Shown here piece after piece: positions 4,078-7,273 of a DNA stretch of 33,211 nucleotides. The notes beneath the pieces are model-generated. The model had not been told where the DNA came from. It worked only from the letters and a program-made list of their open reading frames with translations, and did no database searches. The stretch covers positions 1-33,211 of the forward strand of contig JADGAY010000025.1 in the NCBI GenBank assembly GCA_015231775.1, written 5' to 3'. Position 1 is the stretch's first letter; the number at the start of each line of letters is the position of its first letter. This DNA comes from Magnetococcales bacterium (GTDB taxonomy: Bacteria; Pseudomonadota; Magnetococcia; Magnetococcales; Magnetaquicoccaceae). Position numbers and translations under genes: made by a program.

Positions 4078-4102
4078 CATCCAACCGATTCACGAACCAC
4101 GA

Positions 4103-4130
4103 AGACCAGGGGAAACCCTGGTCTTTTTTT
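4103..4130 (+). terminator. Rho-independent terminator after the Rha gene
   Basis: AGACCAGGG (4103-4111) and CCCTGGTCT (4116-4124) form a perfect 9-bp stem closed by a GAAA tetraloop (4112-4115), followed by an unbroken T tract to 4130. It ends the control operon and separates it from the AT-richer cargo. Confidence 0.93.
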
Positions 4131-4323
4131 GTTTGCGGATTGCGCAACCAGATGCCAAAATGCAATTCATCAATCATAATCAAGATTATAAAATTGATAA
4201 TAATTTTCGATTAAACTGGTCACTGAAATATTGCATGATCGGTTACAGGGGTGAGTAAACACTGAAGAACGATACCACGTTTTATGTTTCGATATTACTA
4301 ATACACTTTTACTGGAGAAAGCA
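4131..4323 (+). promoter_or_regulatory. AT-rich upstream region of the cargo genes
   Basis: Base composition changes sharply after the terminator: this 193-bp gap is strongly AT-rich, with repeated AATCAT/AAAATT stretches. It is the natural place for the cargo's own promoter. TTGATA at 4194-4199 and TACACT at 4302-4307 resemble -35 and -10 boxes, but neither has a convincing partner at the right spacing. A ribosome binding site (GGAGAAA, about 4314-4320) precedes the ATG at 4324. Confidence 0.45.
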
Positions 4324-5313
4324 ATGGTTTTGAAATCGGCAATCATTCATCGTATCAATAAAGCCAGATATCAATCATCCAGTTTGAATTTGCGCAAACA
4401 AGAACTTAATATTACCAATGAATCTCTGATACGTTTGATTGATGAGGTTCGCGGGCTTTATGAAAGAACAGGAAAAGCGCGTGGAGTATTTGAAGATAAC
4501 AATGATTCCTATCCTTTTCAACGCATGGTGGAACGATTTCTTGATAAAAAGGTTGACTTTGTCCAATTCAGCAGCGGTGCAATGATGCATTTCAAAGAGA
4601 CCGCTGACGATGTCAATCTGGCCACAGGCGGTTATGTCTTGTTTGTTTTGTACGAGGAGAAACCAAACCTGTTTTTGATGGTGGTCATGCTGAACGACAT
4701 AACCGGCACCGCCATTGACAAGGAAAGTCTGGAGGTCAAAGAAATCATGCACCTCGAAACCAAACATTTGCATTTGGCGGCCAGATTGAATATTACCTTC
4801 TGGAAGGGTGAAGAGCAGAAGCAGTACCTGTCCTTCATCAAGGGGCGCGGCGCTGGTGACATCTCACGCTATTTTCTGGATTTTATCGGCTGTAAGAATT
4901 ACAGCAATTCGCAACAGCAGACCAGAATCTTGCGAGACGCAATTGACAATTATTGCAAGACACATGAAATAAGTCAGGACAAGAAGCAGGAAATCAGAAA
5001 AAAGATATATGACCATTGCGAAGAGAAACGCAAAGAACGTAAACCTGTGACGTTGGAGACGATCTCGCGGTTGGTGGATGATGAGAACCCGGAAGCGTTT
5101 CTGATCTATGCAAACTCCGAGGAGGTCGGTTTGAGCGACACGTTTGATCCAGATCAGAGGGTTATGAAGAGCTTTCAATTATTCACCCTCCAAAGACAAG
5201 GCGTTAAACTGTTATTCAATCGTGATCTGCTCGGAACAGAGGTGATTCTTGAGGATGACCGATTGATATTAACCGAAATACCTCAAGAATGGATCGAGCA
5301 ATTGAGAGACTAA
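4324..5313 (+). CDS. NdpA/YejK-family nucleoid-associated protein (NA37)
   Basis: The 329-residue product follows the E. coli YejK (NdpA, 37-kDa nucleoid-associated protein) plan over its whole length, which is also the family's usual size. Landmarks are AIIHRINKA near the start, LIDEVRGLYERTGKARGVFE (about 37-56), the central GGYVLFVLYEE.PNLFLMVVMLND followed by HLETKHLHLAARLNIT, then YLSFIKGRGAGDISRYFLDFIGC (about 160-182) and FNRDLLGTEVILEDDRLILTEIP at the end. YejK binds DNA and influences topoisomerases in its host. It is AT-richer than the flanking phage genes and has its own upstream region, so it looks like an inserted cargo gene. It is coupled to the next gene by a TAATG overlap. Confidence 0.88.
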   Translation: MVLKSAIIHRINKARYQSSSLNLRKQELNITNESLIRLIDEVRGLYERTGKARGVFEDNNDSYPFQRMVERFLDKKVDFVQFSSGAMMHFKETADDVNLATGGYVLFVLYEEKPNLFLMVVMLNDITGTAIDKESLEVKEIMHLETKHLHLAARLNITFWKGEEQKQYLSFIKGRGAGDISRYFLDFIGCKNYSNSQQQTRILRDAIDNYCKTHEISQDKKQEIRKKIYDHCEEKRKERKPVTLETISRLVDDENPEAFLIYANSEEVGLSDTFDPDQRVMKSFQLFTLQRQGVKLLFNRDLLGTEVILEDDRLILTEIPQEWIEQLRD

Positions 5314-6536
5314 TGTCTGATCTAGCACAAAAACTGGCTATTTCTATCGAGACGTATCGACTGCTGCAGAATGTGCGGTGGAACGATGATCGGACGTTCT
5401 CTGGCCAGCTTTCTGTTTCACCCGTCGCAACTGATTTGAAGGATCGATTGGATAAACTTGGCATCCTGTTGGGGAGTCCTTTCCATCATGGGATCCTGGA
5501 ATTGACGGTCCTTTCTCCAATAGGGCTATCAATATTTTTTGCCAAGGACTGGACGGACTATCTGGAACGCAAACCTTTTCGCATTGGAGAGGTAGAGGAT
5601 TTTTATATAGCTGAGGATGACTACTGGCACCAGGATCGTTCGACCAAAGATACCCCCCGTGCGCAGGGCTATCGGGATATTTTGGAGATCGTCGCGATTC
5701 TGCTCAAAGTGGCCGACCATGTCGAATCTGACTCTGGGAGCAAAAAATTGATTTTTTTGCACCAGGGGAAGTTGGAGTTGGTGGTGCGTTATGGCGCGAC
5801 GGATCTGGTTTCTCAACCATCCTTGCCGGCGCTCCGAGAGTTACTTGAAACCGCGCCACATGAGGAGCAGAAGCGGACGATTTTGAAAACCGTCTTGTCT
5901 GACATGCTGAAAAACATTCCACCCGAAACTCGTTTCTCACACCTTTTATCCTCATTCGAGGAGATATGCATGCGAGTCAACGATAATTATCAGGTGTTTG
6001 TCAGCGGTTTTTCGTTCGATGCCGCGCGGGAACAGCTGGAAGAACGCAAGATGGAGTACATGGTCAAACTGAATGGGGTGTTGACCGAGATACAGAACAA
6101 ATTTCTTGCGATCCCGCTCGCTCTTTTGCTTGCCAGTGGGCAGATGGAGGATAAAGGCGCTTTCACATGGAAAAATCTGTCGATCCTGATTGGAGCGATT
6201 CTTTTTGGACTCTTGATGTTGTTTCTGGTGAACAATCAGAGACACACGCTAAGGTCAATCTGGGAGGAAATCGCGCAACGGCGTGATCGATATAAAGATC
6301 AGAATCCAACTCTGTTTTCTCGCGAAAAAATCAAAGAGGTGTTTGATGGTCTCCACGATCGATACCGTCGCCAAATGCGAACGTTGCGTCTGCTAGATAT
6401 TGTTATCATCTGCGGATTGCTATTGACATGCTGGGTGTATTTTCAGCTCACCCCTGATGCTTGGCCGACAATAAAATCAGTCTTCATTTCGATTCTGAAC
6501 TTTTTCGAACAATTATTCTTGTTCTGCATTCGCTGA
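5313..6536 (+). CDS. Multi-pass membrane protein, unknown family, paired with NdpA
   Basis: The ATG at 5313 shares its A with the NdpA stop (TAATG), giving 407 residues. The first about 255 residues are soluble and mixed alpha/beta with no motif I recognise. A charged helix (about 235-262) leads into a hydrophobic segment (about 263-276), a strong transmembrane helix with LSILIGAILFGLLMLFLV (about 288-308), a charged stretch, then another with LLDIVIICGLLLTCWVYF (about 360-380) and a hydrophobic C terminus (about 387-407). A soluble sensor-like domain plus membrane segments, coupled to a DNA-binding partner, resembles the architecture of phage-exclusion systems, but no effector motif is visible and the function is unknown. 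Confidence 0.75.
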   Translation: MSDLAQKLAISIETYRLLQNVRWNDDRTFSGQLSVSPVATDLKDRLDKLGILLGSPFHHGILELTVLSPIGLSIFFAKDWTDYLERKPFRIGEVEDFYIAEDDYWHQDRSTKDTPRAQGYRDILEIVAILLKVADHVESDSGSKKLIFLHQGKLELVVRYGATDLVSQPSLPALRELLETAPHEEQKRTILKTVLSDMLKNIPPETRFSHLLSSFEEICMRVNDNYQVFVSGFSFDAAREQLEERKMEYMVKLNGVLTEIQNKFLAIPLALLLASGQMEDKGAFTWKNLSILIGAILFGLLMLFLVNNQRHTLRSIWEEIAQRRDRYKDQNPTLFSREKIKEVFDGLHDRYRRQMRTLRLLDIVIICGLLLTCWVYFQLTPDAWPTIKSVFISILNFFEQLFLFCIR

Positions 6537-6619
6537 TTAGGCATCTCTGCAAGACCAAACAGCCCATCATTTGCCGTCATCCGTCGCCTGCCTTCCTGTT
6601 CTTCTCATCCTTATCCTGA

Positions 6620-6637: not shown

Positions 6638-6682
6638 AATCGCCCAGGGCGGACGCAACCTTCTTTGTGTCAGGAGCGGATC

Positions 6683-7273
6683 ATGTCCGATTTTCTTCCA
6701 GCGTTTCAAAAGACCATGGGCCATGAGGGCGGTTGGTGCAACACGCCCGGTGATCGCGGTGGGGAGACCTACCGGGGGATCTCCCGTGTCTATCATCCCA
6801 AGTGGCCCGGCTGGCCGCTGATCGATCGGCTCAAGAATTCCGCTGGCGTGCCGGTGATTCAGGGGGCGGATCTGGAGAGCCTTAACGGGATGGTGGAGGC
6901 GTTCTACCAGAGCGAGTTCTGGGTGCGGTGCGGCTGCGACCGGATCGGTCATCAGGGGATCGCCGAGGAGTTGTTCGACAGCGCCGTCAACGTCGGGGTG
7001 GTTGCCGCGCAGACGTGGCTGCAAGAGTCGATCAACATTCTCAACGTGCGGTTCCGCCTCTCCGGACAGCTCACGGTGGATGGGCATATCGGGCCGGGCA
7101 CGCTCGCCGCCGTGGCCAAGATGCTGGAGCGCGGGACCGGGGTGTTGCTGTTCCGGCTGATGAATCTGGCGCAGGGGGCGCACTACCTCAATTTGGCGCG
7201 CAAGGATCCCGTCCAGGCCAAATTCCTGGCCGGCGGCTGGCTCGATCGGATCGAGTGGGAGACCTCCCGATAA
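6683..7273 (+). CDS. Endolysin, glycoside hydrolase family 108 type
   Basis: The ATG at 6683 with GGAG upstream gives 196 residues. The N terminus carries the GH108 signature HEGGWCNTPGDRGGETYRGIS, with Glu15 as the predicted catalytic acid. The rest matches the family: a helical middle with FYQSEFWVRCGCDRI and ELFDSAVNVGV, then a C-terminal peptidoglycan-binding-like part with LTVDGHIGPGTLAAV and an Arg/Tyr-rich end. These enzymes cleave the glycan strand of peptidoglycan at the end of infection. No signal peptide is visible, so release would depend on a holin. It opens the lysis block. Confidence 0.9.
   Translation: MSDFLPAFQKTMGHEGGWCNTPGDRGGETYRGISRVYHPKWPGWPLIDRLKNSAGVPVIQGADLESLNGMVEAFYQSEFWVRCGCDRIGHQGIAEELFDSAVNVGVVAAQTWLQESINILNVRFRLSGQLTVDGHIGPGTLAAVAKMLERGTGVLLFRLMNLAQGAHYLNLARKDPVQAKFLAGGWLDRIEWETSR

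Follow-up and report, generated by a model that had tools for sequence, protein, structure and literature searches.

What does an AT-rich pair of genes, one encoding a relative of a nucleoid-associated protein and the other a membrane protein, do between the regulatory genes and the endolysin gene of a prophage? The question is raised by a stretch of 33,211 nucleotides from a Magnetococcales bacterium (contig JADGAY010000025.1), referred to in its entirety as the window. An earlier note on this DNA, made from the letters alone, had read the pair as cargo with a role in lysogenic conversion or defence. Our analysis supports this reading, because both genes are homologous, in the same order, to those of the anti-phage system DS-1, because the pair is kept together in other genomes and because a sister prophage carries another gene at the same site. 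We propose that the pair is probably an anti-phage cassette for defence against superinfection, DS-1-like but divergent, which a prophage with Mu-like regulators carries as cargo.

An AT-rich island between a terminator and the endolysin gene

The window is a prophage segment with Mu-like regulators; it encodes GemA (PF06252), activators and repressor-type proteins of the Mor (PF08765), Bro-N (antirepressor) and Rha types, and an endolysin together with terminases and portal, head and tail proteins. Single-protein searches of viral contigs with the window portal recovered no relative. Among the regulatory genes there is also a DciA/DUF721-domain protein (2013-2516; PF05258, E 1.9e-14), which has no PHROG match at E 0.001 and which we take to be a phage-encoded relative of the helicase-loading factor found in the host.

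The cargo island (4131..6560, no strand assigned) is AT-rich. Its GC content is 0.445 versus 0.625 for the remaining window, and the lowest value among 519 overlapping windows of the same size elsewhere is 0.591, placing the island at a z of about -13.5. Third codon positions show the same bias, with a GC3 of 0.514 in gene 1 and 0.543 in gene 2 versus 0.73-0.84 in nine other prophage genes. The sharp change in base composition that had been noticed by eye is therefore genuine. The 3' border at 6560 is approximate, a coarse choice of ours; alignment with the sister prophage resumes at 6574. Upstream, the island is bordered by an intrinsic terminator on the forward strand (4101..4126), located 3' of the Rha-type gene, with an 11-bp stem containing 6 G-C pairs, a loop of 4 and a T-rich tail (TTTTGTTTGC). 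Downstream, the next gene 3' of the pair is the endolysin gene (6665-7273; PF05838, E 3.9e-20), and nothing resembling a terminator turned up between the gene 2 stop and the start of the endolysin gene; the isolation ascribed to the pair therefore holds for its upstream side only. A promoter scan over both strands of 3 kb returned 8 sites versus 3.3 expected (sd 2.0) and singled out no promoter.

The proximity of the endolysin gene, with no terminator found in between, invites a different reading, namely that the pair serves the phage itself, the NA37 protein acting as organiser of prophage DNA or transcription factor and the membrane protein as a helper in lysis or exclusion. There is a precedent in NdpA2, which helps TprA to activate the transfer genes of PAPI-1, an ICE (according to PMC8565334). 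We consider this quite unlikely, as the base composition of the pair deviates from that of the prophage and a sister prophage does without it. This sister (G007, same genus, portal 72% identical) aligns with the window on both flanks of the site and has there, instead of the pair, about 760 bases with one frame on the opposite strand, lipoprotein-like by the reading of its N-terminus. With one sister prophage compared, the position of the pair looks like a cargo site.

Two further features of the sister prophage deserve mention. Approximately 0.5 kb upstream of the site lies a different AT-rich two-gene cargo (L157:12728-14042). One of its genes encodes a DUF6731 protein (E 2.4e-10), the other a small hydrophobic protein that PADLOC matches weakly to RexB (E 0.0044). 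Profile comparison of these proteins with RexA and RexB of phage lambda gave hhalign probabilities of 4.3 and 1.2 only, and the name DUF6731 was not found in the literature searched; this is possibly another soluble-plus-membrane exclusion pair. In addition, the segment 6600-6713 of the window, before and at the endolysin start, has two matches in the sister prophage, one at its endolysin and one just before its Rha remnant. These repeats flank the cargo site of the sister and are perhaps a footprint of cargo exchange.

A nucleoid-associated protein overlapping a membrane protein

Gene 1 (4324..5313, forward strand) encodes a nucleoid-associated protein of the NA37/YejK family with 329 amino acids; the family, named in the earlier note as NdpA/YejK, was borne out by Pfam (PF04245, E 2.6e-66). 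The protein scores 239.7 bits against the YejK/NdpA equivalog model NF001557, under the cut-off of 341. The profile of the gene 1 family (A2) matches 9be2, a YejK sequence with a solved structure in the PDB, at E 2.4e-71. According to Lee and Marians (2013, as related in PMC10561277), YejK is a binder of double-stranded DNA that also makes contact with topoisomerase IV; the product of gene 1 is probably a DNA binder as well.

Gene 2 (5313..6536, forward strand) encodes a membrane protein of 407 amino acids when read from the ATG in the overlap; were translation to start at the in-frame ATG at 5289, the protein would have 415. The two genes share a TAATG stop-start overlap (5311..5315, forward strand), as had been noted, both frames are intact, and the overlap is likely to couple their translation. 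The N-terminal half of the protein is mostly hydrophilic and is followed by a charged stretch and, by hydropathy, two to four hydrophobic segments. Taking a mean hydropathy of 1.5 or more over 19 residues as a hydrophobic segment, we find segments at 288-306, 357-375 and 387-405, the first two being strong. A weaker segment at 256-274 (hydropathy 1.45) contains the invariant Pro268, and another at 59-77 (1.52) is not seen in the family average. Two to four such segments occur in 110 of 111 homologues, and the charged stretch is conserved in the family with the consensus FSYxKIRxExExxKxEYxxKI.

Gene 2 belongs with phrog_5023 (E 3.3e-56), a family of unknown function. At E 0.1 Pfam offers nothing for the window protein, the nearest match being MADF (E 0.11), so that no known housekeeping or transport family emerges for it; the best hit of the gene 2 profile among PDB sequences (E 0.067) is not convincing, and a single-protein search of viral contigs with the gene 2 sequence found no relative. 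Several faint matches were set aside: those of the homologues to 67 Pfam families, some of them transporters, with a best E of 0.00035; DivIC, matched in a scattered manner by 10 of 96 homologues; SLATT_1 (E 0.048); and the PADLOC models MTase_II (E 0.0018) and retron (E 0.024).

Might the cassette be a remnant, once active and no longer working in this genome? Decay has precedents among the relatives, in three short plasmid copies of gene 2 that lack the NA37 gene (L012, L016 and L020) and in a copy with an in-frame stop (G011). We regard this as very improbable for the window, where both genes are full length and overlap and where gene 2 keeps S234, P268 and Q309, which are invariant across 96 aligned homologues.

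A divergent relative of DS-1

The curated NCBIfam models of DS-1 match both proteins of the pair. Gene 1 matches NF053868 (DS1_1_antiphage) at E 7.4e-30 over residues 27-292, with 104.2 bits and a cut-off of 330, while gene 2 matches NF053869 (DS1_2_antiphage) at E 3e-25 over residues 93-366, with 89.1 bits and a cut-off of 315. Gene 1 is a distant relative of DS-1 protein 1 and gene 2 of DS-1 protein 2, and the earlier statement that no system with this exact pair had been described does not stand, because these models cover it. NF053869 is matched by all 16 gene 2 proteins of alignment A1, including those of the window and of a strict DS-1 locus on a Klebsiella plasmid (L013). The proteins of the latter locus, which lies between holin and Q-type antiterminator genes, reach 450.5 bits (DS1_1, cut-off 330) and 369.5 bits (DS1_2, cut-off 315). 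When families built without this locus were aligned to it, hhalign returned probabilities of 99.4 for gene 1 and 98.6 for gene 2. Pairwise, the window proteins are 23-24% identical to strict DS-1 over part of their length, and in the gene 2 tree the Klebsiella sequence is a very long branch of unsure placement. Given this low identity and scores far under the DS-1 cut-offs, function may have drifted. When 398 genomes of the window's phylum were searched, none of the nine matching genomes passed the DS1_2 cut-off.

A marked structural difference lies at the N-terminus of protein 1. Paired CxxC motifs within the first 60 residues are absent from gene 1 and occur in one of 107 homologues, that of the Klebsiella plasmid. 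By extension from this locus, the tested E. coli DS-1 would also carry an N-terminal zinc finger. The window pair may accordingly be seen as a divergent form, lacking the zinc finger, of a defence system that has only recently been reported, and its own defence activity as predicted from homology.

Which experiment stands behind the name? According to PMC13092281 (DefensePredictor), 94 units were tested in E. coli MG1655 against 24 phages and 42 were protective; the YejK nucleoid-associated domain is listed among the domains newly validated in defence, and DS numbers were assigned to the systems discovered with DefensePredictor. This report of a validated E. coli unit with a YejK domain further undercuts the novelty of the pair. 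'DS-1' as a whole word does not occur in the main text of PMC13092281, no mechanism for the YejK unit was found there, and a legend has the abbreviation 'ZF', assigned to no system. The NCBIfam DS1 models nevertheless stem, very probably, from this YejK unit. 'DS-1' also appears among the rare defence subtypes of a Providencia survey (PMC12935923), and we assume that the same system is meant. In the literature searched, PMC13092281 was the only paper found with both YejK and anti-phage. A yejK gene is reported in an IME-like island in PMC13310844, in a passage that makes no tie to defence, and the passage of PMC10305613 on phage ndpA genes notes them without a tested function.

DNA 80-90% identical to the Klebsiella pair is present in 105 of 5426 complete E. 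coli genomes. In the one region examined, this relative sits between a prophage holin and a Q-type antiterminator, and thus occupies the same kind of place as the window pair. The structural and lysis genes of the phage are encoded on the other strand, an orientation that speaks against a module serving the phage.

Linkage and correlated divergence of the two genes

The 130 loci analysed, at least 80 from genomes and 50 from viral contigs, were found by a search with gene 2 alone; the search patterns lie within gene 2 only, and linkage to NA37 is therefore not built into the result. Among the matches listed, 127 of the 130 loci have an NA37 gene upstream in the same orientation; the 130 form 102 clusters at 90% identity. 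How often the two genes stand together elsewhere was a check that the earlier note itself had proposed, and the answer is nearly always. The distance between them, measured from the first possible start, is at most zero in 110 of the 127 linked loci and within 60 bases in 119, again among the matches listed; a gap or overlap of more than 60 bases is found in eight, and in seven the NA37 frame falls short of 900 bases. Of the three unlinked loci, two are cut by a contig edge (L096 and L147) and one is a fragment of 184 amino acids (L156).

The pair is found on bacterial contigs, on phages and on plasmids. Gene 2 occurs in 20 phage or plasmid records, of which 19 were used (H5, which equals H6 in match range and identity, was left out; the matches of L009 and L021 are identical). 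The pair is present in 16 of the 19, and the other three are the plasmids with a short gene 2. That the same pair occurs in different gene surroundings, both in phages and on plasmids, is a further argument against a function for this particular phage. The two genes also diverge together: in a mirror-tree comparison of 107 pairs the distances correlate with r 0.857, a value that includes the shared descent of the carriers, and the best of 999 permutations reached 0.181.

Among 150 genomes of relatives the presence of gene 2 is patchy. It was detected in five, the window's own genome included; one of these five hits is a fragment at a contig edge and another is weak (E 2.1e-4). NA37 genes occur in 21 of the 150. 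Within the same family and order they are confined to the three genomes with a substantial gene 2 (G000, G011 and G021), so that NA37 is not a housekeeping gene in these relatives. The nearest relative of the pair is found in G011 (L158:4514-9481), where gene 1 is 53% identical and the pair lies beside a transposase-like frame; its membrane gene contains one in-frame stop, and this copy is probably decaying. The contig-edge fragment of gene 2 (L160:18-467, in G006) adjoins frames resembling the genes of the GemA region of a Mu-like prophage, a different place from that in the window.

Is the lone, housekeeping form of the protein the ancestor of the paired one? A tree was built from 109 paired NA37 genes and 17 lone ones, the latter having no match to gene 2 in the locus retrieved around them. 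In it, 16 of the 17 lone genes form one group among the paired genes, which are spread more widely. The group has a support of 93, and of 92 in a second tree built without the seventeenth lone gene (L200, an extreme long branch) and four long paired rows; neither value is in the starred range, both trees are unrooted, and the lone genes come from the same phylum, with E. coli YejK not among the sequences. This pattern would be compatible with the reverse history, unlikely in our view, in which the mobile pair of NA37 and membrane protein is the older and more diverse form and the lone housekeeping YejK/NdpA, the kind present in E. coli, is a branch that lost its membrane partner. If so, the host nucleoid protein YejK would have been domesticated from a sensor of phage defence.

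A model for the pair

How might such a cassette act? On the reading that we favour, a DS-1-like defence, the NA37/YejK-type protein would recognise incoming or replicating phage DNA, or a nucleoprotein state of the phage, and would act through its near-obligate partner, the membrane protein encoded by gene 2. The latter is envisaged with its N-terminal part presumably in the cytoplasm, followed by a charged stretch resembling a stalk and by a few hydrophobic helices in a small bundle. As the effector, it would perturb the membrane and abort the infection, following a Rex-like logic. A design with a DNA sensor and a membrane effector is plausible by analogy, and the two proteins would be in contact.

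Alternatively, the pair could operate as a DNA trap in the manner of Kiwa, with the membrane protein sensing injection or serving as anchor and the NA37 protein coating the injected DNA at the membrane, which would block phage replication and late transcription without killing the cell. The division of labour is the same as in Kiwa, where membrane tetramers of KwaA hold DNA-binding dimers of KwaB (as described in PMC12904381), and docking could take place on the extensive hydrophilic half of gene 2. We rate this alternative as possible, if somewhat unlikely. The gene 1 family aligns to KwaB with an hhalign probability of 0.5 and the gene 2 family to the presumed KwaA frames with 0.2, and the KwaB model (PF16162) is not among the Pfam hits of gene 1 up to E 1. 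The gene order of Kiwa is also reversed, with a frame of 172-221 amino acids ending directly upstream of KwaB in all nine loci compared (of 11, L174 and L179 being left aside; KwaA was taken to be this upstream frame, presumed without a model check). For the DS-1-like cassette, we lean slightly towards the membrane protein as effector rather than as a mere anchor that keeps the DNA binder at the membrane to smother injected DNA.

What are the implications for DS-1 itself? The present data extend it beyond E. coli to a family of mobile pairs that is large and diverse, mostly without the zinc finger, and whose carriers include alpha-, beta- and gammaproteobacterial contigs, phages and plasmids. 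Such a family offers many natural variants with which the trigger and the effector step of DS-1-like systems can be sought, and it raises a testable link between phage defence and YejK, a nucleoid protein of unclear role.

Comparison with known systems

With the housekeeping YejK/NdpA proteins the window pair has the NA37 family in common, although gene 1 remains under the YejK cut-off (239.7 versus 341). RexA-RexB of phage lambda is a soluble and a membrane protein with an exclusion logic. The likeness to the window pair lies in a prophage-encoded soluble protein joined to a membrane protein; the sequences differ, with hhalign probabilities of 0.2 (RexA) and 2.2 (RexB) versus the window families and no RexB among the PADLOC hits of gene 2. 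Kiwa (KwaA-KwaB) likewise combines a DNA-binding with a membrane protein and is unlike the window pair in sequence and gene order. Homology of the pair to Kiwa or Rex was rejected, all hhalign probabilities being 2.2 or less, and since no sequence similarity to their proteins was found, the mechanisms of both serve as analogies only. The closest counterpart is DS-1. The window proteins differ from it in falling under both curated equivalog cut-offs (104.2/330 and 89.1/315 bits) and in lacking the zinc-finger-like CxxC pair of protein 1 in the Klebsiella plasmid. Both systems nevertheless consist of two homologous genes in the same order, a YejK/NA37 protein followed by a membrane-type protein, and they are found in similar surroundings, the Klebsiella locus and one E. 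coli region between a holin and a Q-type antiterminator, and the window pair next to an endolysin.
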